A DNA stretch of 64,000 nt from positions 464,641-528,640 of the forward strand of contig NZ_QAJM01000016.1 of NCBI RefSeq assembly GCF_003852405.1, written 5' to 3'. The stretch comes from Pseudomonas sp. KBW05 (lineage in GTDB: Bacteria > Pseudomonadota > Gammaproteobacteria > Pseudomonadales > Pseudomonadaceae). The notes under the pieces are model-generated. The model ran no database searches. It was not told the origin of the DNA and saw only the letters and a program-made list of their open reading frames with translations. Made by a program: the position numbers and the translations under genes. This document shows, in pieces, positions 50,721 through 54,905 of this stretch (position 1 is the stretch's first letter; each line of letters starts with the position of its first letter).

Positions 50721-51099
50721 AGGAATACTCCAGGCGTAGCGCGGCTAGGGAATGGCGAACCGGGTGGGGCTCAGCGCAGAACGAAAGGCACGAGGCGTAC
50801 GGGGGGAGTTGGAGCGAACAGGCGGGTACGGACGGACATCGGGAATCACCATTGTTGTTGTGTACAGCCGGTCTGGTGCCGGCAGTTGGAGGCGATCCTA
50901 GACGGGAAAGCTTTCAGCCAGCTTTCGCTGGGAAAACAGGTGATGAAGGGAAGAGGCGCTATCTGTGGATTTATGCAGATCCAAATGTGGGAGCGGGCTT
51001 GCTCGCGAATGCAGTCTGTCAGTTGATGATGCATCGACTGACACTGCGCTTTCGCGAGCAAGCCCGCTCCCACATTTGGATAGTGTTTGGCTGGAGATT
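50721..51099. other. Intergenic region between citrate transporter and DUF4105 gene
   Basis: 379 bases including the promoter side of the citrate transporter (from 50721) and one REPIN at 50986-51074. No supported gene or terminator seen in the first 265 bases. Confidence 0.5.
50986..51074. repeat. REPIN
   Basis: Inverted pair of the GTGGGAGCGGGCTTGCTCGCG unit, with outer flanks CCAAA and TTTGG that are also inverted. Between the citrate transporter promoter region and the DUF4105 gene end. Confidence 0.92.
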
Positions 51100-53061
51100 T
51101 TAGGGCAGCTCGAGCCCGCCGGCGGCTTTGTGCAGTTTGCGCAAGTGTTCGCCGACTTGCTTGAGATTGGCCTCGCACGCCGCAATCTCATCCGCCCGGG
51201 CCGGATCCAGCAGCGCCCTCACCTCTTTATCCAGATCACCGGTCAGCGATTGCAGCTGCTTCTGGCGTTCGGCGCTTTCCGATTCCAGGCGTTTGGCTTC
51301 GGACGGTTGCGGCAGGCCGTAGCCGCCGCTGCCGAGCAATTCCGCCGGGCGGCTGAGGAAGCCGCTGTTGGCGAGGATTTGTTGCAAGGTGTTGTTAGCC
51401 TTTTCCATGCCGCCGTTTTTCAGCTCGCGGGCGCCCAGGTAGCGTTGTTTGACTTCGTCCTGGGCCAGCATCAGTTGCTTGCGGTAGCTCGCCTGTTCAA
51501 GCAACAACAGTGCGGCGCTGGTGCGCAGGTCGGCCTTGTCGAACCAGGGGCGGCGTTCGGCGGCGCTGAGGGACAGCCAGTCTTCGACCTGGGTCTGCTT
51601 GATCGGCAGGTGTTTGCGCAACACGTCGAACATCGCCTGGTAGCGCTCGCGGAACGAGTCGAAGTGGTAACCCAGGCGCAGGGCGTTGCGTTTGTCGTCG
51701 AGCACGCTGGTATCGGCCAGGCCACGGGCGCTCAACACTTCGAGCAGGCCGTTGGGGGTGATGTTGTCCAGGCCGGTCAGTTGCGGGTTGGCGCTGCCAC
51801 TGCGCAACAGTTTCAGGCTTTCGACCGCGCAGTTGTTGGAGATGAAGAAGTAGTTGCCGTCATAGCTCCAGTGCATCTCGGCGGCGTGCTCGACGGTGTC
51901 GTTGATTTCCTGGCGTGACAGCTTCAGCGGCACCGAGGCGAGGCCGCGCAGTTCGGTCTTGGTGTATTCGTCGATCACTTGGGCGAGCGGCAGCACGAAT
52001 AGGCGCGAAGGGTATTTGCCCACCAGGCCGTCCCAGCTCGATAGCTGTACGTCACCGACGAACGCGCGGTAGGACAACACCAGGTGCTGGTCCAGGTCCA
52101 GCCGGCAATCCGGCCCGCGTGGGCGACCGGGCGCGCAGATCACCAGGCGCAACATGCTGTGGCCCCAGCGGCTGACCAGGTTCTGGTTGGCTTCGGCCAG
52201 CAGGTAGTCGATTTCGTAGACGCGTTCCGGGTCGATCTGCCCGAGCGGTGTCTTGGCGAAGTCGTTGCCGGCGTTCAGGAAGGCGTAGGTCTTGGCGCAG
52301 GCGTCTTGTTGCGGTGGTGCCCAGCCGAAGTGGTCCTTGTAGTAGCGGAACAGCGCCGGGCGGCGGCAGGCGTAGCTGGGGTCGAGGAGGAAGTACTCCA
52401 TGTTGACCGCGACGAATTCCAGCGGGCTGGTGGTTTCGTATATGTCCGGGCTGCGGGCGACCTGGCGGTTGTGCTGTTCGCGCTCACCGCGACGGCCGAC
52501 GTATTGCGGCCAGCCGGCGAGGTCCAGCAGGCGCGGGTCGTCGCTGAGGGTAAAGCGGCGGCCATTCTGGCCACGGCATTGGTCGGGCAGGCCGATCAGG
52601 CCGGTGAGGTTGTTCTGGCGACTGCAACGGTTGATCAGGGCGCGGTCGTCTTTGGACCACAGGCGCGCACGGTCATAGATGTGGGTCAGTTCATGCAGCA
52701 CGGTGGCGAGCATTTCCCGGCGCACGGTGCCGTGGGGGCGGTTGGTTTTCTGGGTGGCGGCGCTGCCGTCGGTCAGGCTGGCGAGCAGGTTGCGGTTGAG
52801 GTCCAGCTCGGACACCAGGGAGGCCTGGCCGTAGGCATTCTCCGGCATCTTGTCGGTCCAGCCGACATCGATGCGCCGGTCAAGCTGCTCGATAAAGCGT
52901 GGCGGCAGTGCGCGCATCGCTTCGTCGAGCAAGGCCTGGCTGGCTTGCTGCTGTGCTGGGCTCAAACCGTCGGTCTTGAGCCGCAGTTGCAGGCTGGCCT
53001 GGGCTGCGCCTGCGCTGAGCAGGACAGTCCACGCCAGGAGCCAGGCGGTGAGGCGCCTCAC
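51100..53061 (-). CDS. Exported DUF4105 (Lnb N-terminal-like) protein
   Basis: A 653-residue periplasmic protein (signal peptide ends near GAAQAS). Two putative catalytic signatures are visible: a zincin-like HELTH motif at 123-127 with a plausible third ligand in LEFVAVNMEYF (Glu215 or Glu222), and in the DUF4105 part a WGHSML motif (His301) and NNCAVESL (Cys411) spaced like the His/Cys of permuted papain-like (NlpC/P60, LRAT) enzymes. The C-terminal ~100 residues look coiled coil. Its ATG overlaps the stop of a DUF2388 gene (ATGA), so it is coupled to it. The substrate is unknown; envelope-directed hydrolase activity is inference. Confidence 0.8.
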   Translation of the reverse strand: MRRLTAWLLAWTVLLSAGAAQASLQLRLKTDGLSPAQQQASQALLDEAMRALPPRFIEQLDRRIDVGWTDKMPENAYGQASLVSELDLNRNLLASLTDGSAATQKTNRPHGTVRREMLATVLHELTHIYDRARLWSKDDRALINRCSRQNNLTGLIGLPDQCRGQNGRRFTLSDDPRLLDLAGWPQYVGRRGEREQHNRQVARSPDIYETTSPLEFVAVNMEYFLLDPSYACRRPALFRYYKDHFGWAPPQQDACAKTYAFLNAGNDFAKTPLGQIDPERVYEIDYLLAEANQNLVSRWGHSMLRLVICAPGRPRGPDCRLDLDQHLVLSYRAFVGDVQLSSWDGLVGKYPSRLFVLPLAQVIDEYTKTELRGLASVPLKLSRQEINDTVEHAAEMHWSYDGNYFFISNNCAVESLKLLRSGSANPQLTGLDNITPNGLLEVLSARGLADTSVLDDKRNALRLGYHFDSFRERYQAMFDVLRKHLPIKQTQVEDWLSLSAAERRPWFDKADLRTSAALLLLEQASYRKQLMLAQDEVKQRYLGARELKNGGMEKANNTLQQILANSGFLSRPAELLGSGGYGLPQPSEAKRLESESAERQKQLQSLTGDLDKEVRALLDPARADEIAACEANLKQVGEHLRKLHKAAGGLELP

Positions 53062-53378
53062 AGAGCGAGGATAGCTTCGGCGAGGGTCTGATCACTGGCG
53101 TCGCGAGCTTCGGGCACGCGGGTACGCAGGGTGTCGAAGGCGGCTTCGAGTTGCGCGCCACGGATCTCGCCGTTGCTGGCGACGAAGCTGGCGGCGTCGT
53201 CGTGGGCTTCGCGGACGATTTTCGAGTCGCGGATGGAGGTGGTGGTGTCCGAGGTGAAATCAATCGTGCGGCCGGAGGCGCGAACGATGATGTTACTGGT
53301 GGCCACCAAGGTCTGCGCCTGGGCAACGTCGGCCAACAACAGCAGGCCTAGGGTGGCGGCGATCAGCGGGCTACGCAT
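53058..53378 (-). CDS. DUF2388 family exported protein, copy A
   Basis: A 106-residue protein with a signal peptide (cut after DVAQA) and the DUF2388 core: DSKIVREAHDDAASFVAS, then IRGAQLEAAF and a C-terminal TLAEAILAL. It is the last DUF2388 gene of three and overlaps the DUF4105 gene by 4 bases. Function unknown. All three copies share the pattern DDAA.F.A..G..RG..LE.A. Confidence 0.88.
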   Translation of the reverse strand: MRSPLIAATLGLLLLADVAQAQTLVATSNIIVRASGRTIDFTSDTTTSIRDSKIVREAHDDAASFVASNGEIRGAQLEAAFDTLRTRVPEARDASDQTLAEAILAL

Positions 53379-53404
53379 GGAATGACTCCGAAATACAAAG
53401 ATGA

Positions 53405-53710
53405 TTATTGGACGAGAATTGCTTGCGCCAGTTCACGGTCGCTGGCGTTAAGTTTTGGGTGGCTGCGGCGTAGGTAATCCAGTGCGGATTCCAGGCGTGC
53501 TCCACGCCATTGGCCGTCAGTGGCGATGAACGCGGCGGCGTCATCCTGTGCGGCCACGATTTTTCTGTCGAATGGCGCGGAGGTCACCTTGCTGGTGGCG
53601 TACGCGCTGGCGACGGTACCCTGGGTGGTCACGTCAAAGGCCGAAGCCAGTGGCGACCAGCAGGCGGAAAATACTAAAGGGGCGATGAACAGGCGGTATG
53701 AAAAAGCCAT
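53405..53710 (-). CDS. DUF2388 family exported protein, copy B
   Basis: A 101-residue paralogue with signal peptide (cut after LASAF) and DRKIVAAQDDAAAFIATDGQWRG followed by LESALDYLRRSHPKLNASDRELAQAIL. ATG 53710 (MAFSYRL) used. It is more divergent at the N-terminus than copies A and C. Same operon: copy C, copy B, copy A, DUF4105. Confidence 0.85.
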   Translation of the reverse strand: MAFSYRLFIAPLVFSACWSPLASAFDVTTQGTVASAYATSKVTSAPFDRKIVAAQDDAAAFIATDGQWRGARLESALDYLRRSHPKLNASDRELAQAILVQ

Positions 53711-53790
53711 GGGACTCGACAACTGAAAACGAGCGCCAAGGCTAGCGCAATGCCCCGGCGAGAGCCAGCGCCGAGGCATGCGGCCGGTTG

Positions 53791-54111
53791 TCAGATGGCC
53801 AGGATGGCTTGGGCCAGCTGGGCGTCAGTCGCGGTGTTCAGTTGGGGCGCTTGTTGGCGAATCTGGGCCAGGGCGCTTTCCAGTTTCACACCACGGATCG
53901 CGCCTTCGCTGGCGACGAAGCTGGCAGCGTCGTCACGGGCGGCGCGCACGACCTTGTTGTCACGCAGGGAGGAAGTGGCATCGGACGTGGCGTCGGAGGT
54001 GGCTTTGAGCGCGCCGACGATCGAGTCAGTGGTCACGATCAAGCTGGTCGCGTTGGCGTTGGCAGCGATTGCCAACAGAGCGGCAGCACTCAGCAGACGA
54101 AGACGGGACAT
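53791..54111 (-). CDS. DUF2388 family exported protein, copy C
   Basis: A 106-residue paralogue: signal peptide (cut after ANANA), a Ser/Thr/Ala/Asp-rich stretch (KATSDATSDATSSL) and the core DNKVVRAARDDAASFVASEGAIRG, LESALAQIR, QLAQAIL. First gene of the operon; its promoter would lie in 54112-54247. Confidence 0.88.
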   Translation of the reverse strand: MSRLRLLSAAALLAIAANANATSLIVTTDSIVGALKATSDATSDATSSLRDNKVVRAARDDAASFVASEGAIRGVKLESALAQIRQQAPQLNTATDAQLAQAILAI

Positions 54112-54247
54112 GGGGTGACTCCTGTAGATGAACGGATAAGGTGGCGCGAGGCGGCCAATGTGGATCAGACGCCCGTACTACAAGGTTCGCCACGTAGTGG
54201 CTGGATATTAAGCCGCCGCTTATCCGTTCGGAAAGCCTCTTGACCGT

Positions 54248-54421
54248 CTAGTCACGCCAGAACGGCTTGGCCAGCTCGCTCATCCGATCAGCGGGGCTGA
54301 TACCGAGGTCAGACAGTTCGCGATGATCGAGCTGCGCCAACTGGCGCCGTTCGTGGGCTTGGCGTGCCCATTTGGCAAGGGTGGAGAACCAGCGTTTATA
54401 GACAGAGATGTGGGTATCCAT
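54248..54421 (-). CDS. DUF1127 small basic protein (copy 1)
   Basis: A 57-residue protein whose C-terminal 45 residues carry the DUF1127 core: RRQLAQLDHRELSDLGIS and MSELAKPFWRD. Basic and Arg-rich. Start MDTHISVYKRW at 54421 has AGGCGCCC-type weak ribosome signals. DUF1127 proteins bind RNA or modulate phosphate and C/N metabolism in some Alphaproteobacteria; role here unknown. Upstream DNA contains ATACAG and ACTGTAC motifs shared with copy 2. Confidence 0.9.
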   Translation of the reverse strand: MDTHISVYKRWFSTLAKWARQAHERRQLAQLDHRELSDLGISPADRMSELAKPFWRD

Positions 54422-54689
54422 GGTGGGCGCCTTTCTTTCATGAGGTCCTGGAACACCATGTTGGGCGAGTCGCTGTGACCGATACAGATACACCAATGCT
54501 AAATTGTACTGCTTAACTGTTTGATTTTTTAAACTGTACCGCTCTGTGCGCAGGGCTACTGTTTTTGCCGCCGAATAACCCAATCCCAGAAACAACAAAG
54601 CCCGCCTCCGGTCTCCCGGGGCGGGCTTTGTTTTGACAAATCAGGTTGCTGGCGGTGGACCCGGCAGGTCAGGGCCAGCGAGCGCTAAA
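54422..54689. other. Intergenic region between DUF1127 copies with ACTGTAC motifs and terminator
   Basis: 268 bases. Contains ATACAG at 54482-54487, AACTGT at 54515-54520, ACTGTACC at 54533-54540, and a terminator at 54597-54629. Also the promoter of copy 1 on the minus strand. Confidence 0.5.
54597..54629. terminator. Intrinsic terminator between the DUF1127 genes
   Basis: AAAGCCCGCC / GGCGGGCTTT, a 10-bp stem with a 13-base loop. Ends the copy 2 gene (minus strand). Confidence 0.85.
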
Positions 54690-54905
54690 TCAGCGCCAGA
54701 ACGGCTTGCTCAGCTCTTCGTAGCGTTGAGCTTCGCTGATACCGGCGTCAGCCAGCAGACGCGAATCCAGGCGAGCCAGTTGGTGGCGGCTGGAGATGCG
54801 GCGCTGCCACAACATCAGGTTGGCGATAACGCGCAGAGGCAGGGAAGCCTGGGTGTTTACAGCTTTTTCTTCGAAGAACAGTTCGGAACTGAGTGTACGT
54901 TCCAT
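54690..54905 (-). CDS. DUF1127 small basic protein (copy 2)
   Basis: A 71-residue protein with a longer acidic N-terminus and the same DUF1127 core: RHQLARLDSRLLADAGIS and YEELSKPFWR. It is paralogous to copy 1 by the shared end SKPFWR/AKPFWRD. ATG 54905 with GGATGTCATC context and AAGGAT upstream. The region upstream is packed with inverted and direct ATACAG/CTGTAC motifs, suggesting strong transcription factor control. Confidence 0.92.
   Translation of the reverse strand: MERTLSSELFFEEKAVNTQASLPLRVIANLMLWQRRISSRHQLARLDSRLLADAGISEAQRYEELSKPFWR

Follow-up and report, generated by a model that had tools for sequence, protein, structure and literature searches.

MtfA (PDB 3dl1, 3khi, 9srw) belongs to peptidase family M90 and is listed in an E. 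coli knockout screen that is of no help for the present question (PMC12147183), and TseH (6v98) and 3kw0 are permuted NlpC/P60 proteins. Lnb carries an Lnb_N domain (formerly DUF4105) together with, to judge from the Pfam name "N-terminal periplasmic domain", a membrane-embedded part. In the excerpts of PMC12994826 used here, DUF4105 is placed in the permuted NlpC/P60 group and Lnb is reported as the lipoprotein N-acyltransferase of Bacteroides; the other papers cited below are likewise represented by excerpts. Here we describe an operon on the minus strand of a 64,000-nucleotide stretch of Pseudomonas sp. KBW05 (contig NZ_QAJM01000016.1, positions 464,641 to 528,640; this whole stretch is called the window), the genome of which has its nearest named relatives among Pseudomonas of the fluorescens kind. 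Three tandem genes for small DUF2388 proteins (D1, D2 and D3) are followed by a gene for a 653-residue protein, a candidate enzyme, in which a DUF7844 domain is joined to an Lnb_N domain. The link between DUF2388 and DUF7844-Lnb_N is real and old, and the two together are a promising candidate for an envelope-control system.

The layout of three DUF2388 genes and one large gene had been described in an earlier note made from the sequence alone, and it is borne out by the coordinates (Table 1) and the profile scores. D1, D2 and D3 all pass the Pfam DUF2388 (PF09498) cut-off, with 91.8-105.2 bits against 25, and the NCBIfam TIGR02448 cut-off as well. The overlap between D3 and the large gene reads GTGA, not ATGA as the note had it, since GTG is the start codon of the large gene. 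The 653-residue protein scores 390.9 bits against DUF7844 (PF25226; cut-off 27) and 93.1 bits against Lnb_N (cut-off 22.2). The DUF4105 assignment given previously was therefore correct and incomplete: a protein consisting of DUF4105 only is ruled out, since DUF7844 spans residues 25-253.

The DUF7844 domain is predicted, from its modelled fold, to resemble the MtfA/PPEP-type zinc peptidases. Both the MtfA-type HExxH motif and a downstream Glu in an ExFAVxxE stretch are present; the Glu stretch aligns significantly to MtfA, and the HExxH only as a segment of -3.3 bits. Against the Pfam peptidase M90 profile the protein is below the cut-off (16.6 against 26.2 bits), so that the domain is called MtfA-like here and not a member of M90. 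The Lnb_N domain is modelled as an Lnb-type permuted NlpC/P60 domain. The HExxH, two downstream Glu, His301 and Cys411 are without change in all 47 aligned sequences. The protein is probably secreted and has a signal-peptide-like start. No 19-residue window above 1.6 on the Kyte-Doolittle scale was found in it, a coarse test that also missed this start. The protein differs from MtfA in its M90 score, its probable export and its fusion to an Lnb-type domain. It has in common with Lnb the Lnb_N domain with His301 and Cys411, and differs from it in the N-terminal zincin domain and in that no membrane segment was found by the same coarse test. The comparison with TseH and 3kw0 gives only 11-15% identity, and secretion-system genes were not seen in the window operon.

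By profile search, the genome to which the window belongs harbours 8 DUF2388 copies, a single DUF7844 gene and 2 Lnb_N genes. The other Lnb_N gene (L140:5648-7498, contig C15) encodes a separate Lnb-type protein of 617 residues with the arrangement DUF7843-Lnb_N-DUF7840, the C-terminal part of which looks, by eye, like an outer-membrane beta-barrel.

The enzyme gene is almost always preceded by a DUF2388 gene. Enzyme loci were taken from 68 diverse genomes, mostly the best-scoring ones with about 20 divergent genomes chosen by hand, and from 80 named Pseudomonas loci, at least five of which duplicate enzyme sequences of the former set. In 67 of the 68 genomes, with the exception of G347, and in all 79 named loci with upstream sequence (L164 begins too late), the gene immediately upstream on the enzyme's strand encodes a DUF2388 protein. 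The order D1-D2-D3 is kept in 78 of the 80 named loci; of the remaining two, one is truncated, and the other contains an additional overlapping open reading frame (ORF) that was scored as D2. The 4-nucleotide overlap, with starts inferred by alignment, is present in 79 of 79. In a second family (f58), the pair is kept in five of five genomes (G348, G500, G608, G903 and G919), with a spacing of about 11-121 nucleotides. Where a genome has a single DUF2388 gene and the locus was fetched, the lone copy is directly upstream of the enzyme gene (11 of 11).

The two families also occur together. Among 198 Pseudomonadaceae genomes, DUF7844 was found in 174 and DUF2388 in 175: both in 174, DUF2388 alone in one, DUF7844 alone in none and neither in 23, where some negatives are inferred from absence from both positive lists and the genomes are mutually related, the counts not being independent events. 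The sole genome with DUF2388 and without DUF7844 (G179) is 78% complete, and its single copy is of the type next to gcvTHP. G190, which is near-complete, is without either family; its congeners carry 1-4 copies. At the order level (145 genomes), the identical five genomes carry both families. At the class level (321 genomes), both were found in five; G347 has DUF7844 above the cut-off without DUF2388, and two further genomes have sub-threshold DUF7844 matches. At the phylum level (349 genomes), 19 are above the DUF7844 cut-off, and eight sub-threshold matches, all from one family, are probably MtfA. There are 1-8 DUF2388 copies per genome, usually against one enzyme gene. The earlier note had proposed a multi-copy set of small secreted or periplasmic proteins that works with one large envelope protein, in the role of substrate, adaptor or inhibitor for example, and had regarded DUF2388 genes mostly without the large gene as the outcome that would speak against it. 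Per genome this outcome was not seen, the pairing holding in 174 of 175; per gene the picture is mixed, 13 of 25 copies being linked. The triplet itself is not essential, as the lone upstream copies indicate. On this footing the proposal of the note is supported in part, and the small proteins may work with the large one.

In 87 aligned DUF2388 sequences, A41 and L78 are invariant, and K32, D40, F44, G49, R52, G53, E57, R64 and D75 are nearly so. The pattern DDAA.F.A..G..RG..LE.A with a C-terminal LA.AIL, which had been read from the three copies in the window, is therefore a real one. K32 (mature numbering; K53 of D3) is kept in 85 of 87 sequences and lies where the main helical part begins; lysine makes up 2.2% of residues. 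The AlphaFold2 model of D3 is of moderate quality, with a predicted local distance difference test score (pLDDT) of 77.8 and a predicted template-modelling score (pTM) of 0.64, and shows a beta hairpin followed by five helices. The relatives of D3 share one branch of 31 rows (support 100/99), including three long-branch phage-type rows whose joining to it might be false, according to a program warning, in this tree of 84 columns. It should be mentioned that DUF2388 proteins as lipoproteins acylated by the Lnb domain at an N-terminal Cys were considered and rejected: mature cysteine is present in none of the 87 sequences. Among the phage-type proteins described below, the lipobox pattern was found in the first 30 residues in 0 of 73, and a Cys after residue 22 in 9 of 73.

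One class of the DUF2388 copies outside the operon has boxes for AlgU, a sigma factor of the envelope-stress response. The AlgU consensus is given as GAACTT-N16/17-TCtgA, with GAACTC and GAACTA sites also given (PMC10651043). In 30 unlinked copies, hand-picked from the fetched loci and in some cases near-identical, the search covered the first 30 nucleotides of the matched stretch and the 200 nucleotides before it. The form GAAC[CT][CT]-N15-18-TCNN[AGT] is present in 26 of 30 and the looser GAACNN form in 30 of 30, against 0.9 and 3.5 expected from dinucleotide-block shuffles; GAACTT itself is present in only one. Six of these copies are in the tree and group there in a single clade with two further unlinked ones (100/99). 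For the window operon type, the loose form was found in 47 of 79 upstream regions, without an established common position. An AlgU promoter for the window operon is not supported: a GAAC...TAATAT element is conserved but a uniform AlgU box is lacking.

The gcv-gene neighbourhood was checked for four loci and is present in L129, L137 and L339 and not in L134. By gcv synteny, PA5212 of PAO1 should be a DUF2388 gene, PA5213 being, as we assume, gcvP1 in PAO1 numbering. Inhibition of LolCDE raises PA5212 11.4- and 17.2-fold along with osmC, osmE and lptF, and a group including PA5212 responds to meropenem, polymyxin B or both (PMC7685553). PA5212 is also listed beside lptF and osmE in a table of cystic-fibrosis adaptation (PMC8190622), among high-ranked biofilm transcripts (PMC2998477) and within one regulatory gene set of a sputum study (PMC10473638), and PA5211-PA5212 is among the regions enriched in aminoglycoside selections (PMC2771283). 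In a P. putida alr mutant, the DUF2388 gene PP_3743 is raised (PMC6034422). Nothing naming PA5212 together with the AlgU regulon was found in the open-access full-text literature. In the genome of the window, a D1-like DUF2388 copy (L130, contig C37) lies near a gene resembling gloB by eye.

A further class of DUF2388 genes is carried by phages. In a prophage-like immunity region of the window's genome (L132:1962-7396, contig C1), which also holds a replication protein, two phage-type DUF2388 genes are found between a cI-type repressor gene (phrog_4), which precedes them, and an Imm_superinfect (PF14373) gene, which follows closely. A scan of IMG/VR gave 81 phage-type relatives, of which 80 were kept, so that at least 80 viral contigs carry the gene; 14 further loci were found with an alignment as query, many of them near contig ends and possibly host flank. 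In single-query searches, 42 of the 80 loci gave a cI-type repressor upstream on the strand of the DUF2388 gene, and 15 gave a superinfection-immunity relative. The phage-type proteins keep the core DA..FIGS.GEIRGA..E.A with D..LA.AI, and they are under purifying selection (median ratio of nonsynonymous to synonymous substitution rates 0.13; 69 sequences, 1689 non-independent pairs). The large enzyme gene is present in 0 of 94 viral DUF2388 loci, and DUF7844 in 0 of the 50 viral records searched (of 80), which may be fragments. The host enzyme alongside a phage-type DUF2388 was seen only in the window's own genome. The phage GenBank records yielded a single good match (MT836865.1, 54.6% identity), besides a fragment at the end of a record; none of the plasmids searched matched DUF2388. 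Like phage morons of the immunity region, the phage-type genes are carried near lysogeny genes and are under selection, in the window's genome likewise between repressor and Imm_superinfect gene; they differ from such morons in their homology to a chromosomal family of the host that is tied to a host enzyme. These copies, the unlinked copies with AlgU-type boxes and the zincin domain had all escaped the earlier note. Another phage-type DUF2388 gene of this genome (L131:5836-6174, C1:90991) is outside the immunity region; its neighbours are, by eye, permease-like and envelope-polysaccharide-like genes.

The reading that we tentatively prefer, while regarding it as plausible rather than probable, is that DUF2388 proteins are small periplasmic partners which regulate or adapt one bifunctional enzyme. 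It is built on the gene order, the co-occurrence, the catalytic-type residues, the predicted folds, the AlgU-type boxes and the phage carriage under purifying selection; from these we infer export, catalysis, binding, the direction of effect and any lipoprotein-related role. The large protein would act in the periplasm as an enzyme that has potentially two catalytic centres: one a zinc peptidase of the MtfA/PPEP type, the other an Lnb-type permuted NlpC/P60 centre of the acyl-transfer or amide-cleaving kind. DUF2388 would bind and steer it as an adaptor, activator or inhibitor. D3, translated together with the enzyme, might be the standing partner, and copies elsewhere might tune the enzyme under other conditions, the AlgU-box class in envelope stress and the phage copies in lysogens, where they would interfere. 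A link to lipids or lipoproteins is suggested because Lnb is reported as the Bacteroides N-acyltransferase (PMC12994826) and because of the LolCDE response. The wider form of this reading, in which DUF2388 is a family of control proteins for the zincin/Lnb-type enzyme and the copy of temperate phages redirects or blocks the host enzyme in lysogens, for example by an envelope change against superinfecting phages, is considered unlikely.

Several observations weigh against the partner reading. Of the 25 DUF2388 copies in five genomes, 13 are in the operon and 12 are elsewhere. The 4-nucleotide overlap is not general, being present in 25 of the 67 diverse genomes that have the pair. Where a genome has one linked copy, co-loss carries little weight, because one deletion takes out both genes, and the related genomes behind the co-occurrence counts are not independent. 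The hairpin part of the DUF2388 model is poorly scored (51-70); the model, of moderate quality, matches no known binder or inhibitor fold, and the fold searches gave no relative. Something else may be the target of the phage copies, and their viral records are possibly fragments, none reaching a completeness rating of 90%. In addition, G347 (lineage f57) has an enzyme gene without a recognisable DUF2388. Its 103-residue ORF, which has a signal-like start and ends 9 nucleotides before the enzyme gene, scores best among 39 ORFs against the DUF2388 profile (E 0.023; runner-up 0.14) and has no Pfam DUF2388 match; as a sign of a DUF2388 protein this is suggestive only.

The partner reading has to be compared with three others. 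DUF2388 proteins might be substrates, which the enzyme cleaves or acylates at the conserved lysine to give several small modified envelope proteins. The usual ratio of one enzyme gene to 1-8 copies, the retention of this lysine in proteins so poor in lysine, and the report of DUF4105/Lnb as an acyltransferase (PMC12994826) agree with this, and the lack of mature cysteine speaks against classical lipoprotein acylation. However, the lysine is possibly structural, and it is less easy to see why phages should carry the substrate of a host enzyme, so that substrates seem somewhat unlikely. If DUF2388 proteins were general envelope-stress proteins, co-expressed with the enzyme and without a physical tie to it, the AlgU-like boxes of the unlinked copies and the 11-17-fold rise of PA5212 (DUF2388 by synteny) on LolCDE inhibition (PMC7685553) would be expected. 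Strict co-occurrence and the directly upstream position in two gammaproteobacterial families are not, and the operon is without a uniform AlgU box; mere co-expression is thus quite improbable. The enzyme as a second lipoprotein N-acyltransferase (Lnb), with DUF2388 as its lipoprotein-specific chaperone, would fit the Lnb_N domain with its unchanged His and Cys and the connection of DUF4105 to Lnt displacement and Lnb (PMC12994826). This possibility is very unlikely, since it leaves the zincin domain unexplained, no membrane segment was found by the coarse hydropathy test, and the Lnb_N score is no more than 93 bits, whereas the DUF7843-Lnb_N-DUF7840 paralogue on C15 reaches 205.

No description of the DUF2388-DUF7844/Lnb pairing, of a DUF2388 function, of the AlgU-box class or of the phage class was found in the parts of the open-access full-text literature that were retrieved. 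If the partner reading is true, it would provide the first function for DUF2388 and DUF7844, which are carried by 174 of the 198 sampled Pseudomonadaceae, would show that Pseudomonas combines an Lnb-type domain with one like a zinc peptidase, and would explain a gene of at least 80 viral contigs.

Table 1. Features of the operon and its upstream region, in window coordinates.
Feature	Positions	Strand	Remarks
Upstream element GAAC...TAATAT	54205..54229	-	promoter-like; kept among named Pseudomonas loci; no clean AlgU box
D1, DUF2388 copy 1, 106 residues	53791..54111	-	signal-peptide-like start; first gene of the operon
D2, DUF2388 copy 2, 101 residues from the ATG at 53710	53405..53710	-	mechanical ORF reaches 53779
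D3, DUF2388 copy 3, 106 residues	53058..53378	-	copy directly coupled to the large gene
GTGA overlap (D3 stop TGA, large-gene start GTG)	53058..53061	-	4 nucleotides
DUF7844-Lnb_N protein, 653 residues	51100..53061	-	signal-peptide-like start
DUF7844 domain, residues 25-253	52303..52989	-	predicted MtfA/PPEP/lethal-factor-type zincin fold
HExxH motif (H123, E124, H127)	52681..52695	-	47/47 aligned sequences without change
Lnb_N domain, residues 270-442, catalytic-type His301	51736..52254	-	predicted permuted NlpC/P60 fold
Cys411, catalytic-type cysteine of Lnb_N	51829..51831	-	47/47 without change

Two genes for small DUF1127 proteins (54248-54598 and 54690-54905, minus strand) lie immediately upstream of the operon. 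After the large gene, inspection by eye showed an extended inverted repeat (GGGAGCGGGCTTGCTCGCG and its complement) at 50980-51080; it resembles a Pseudomonas REP/REPIN element and may serve as a terminator.

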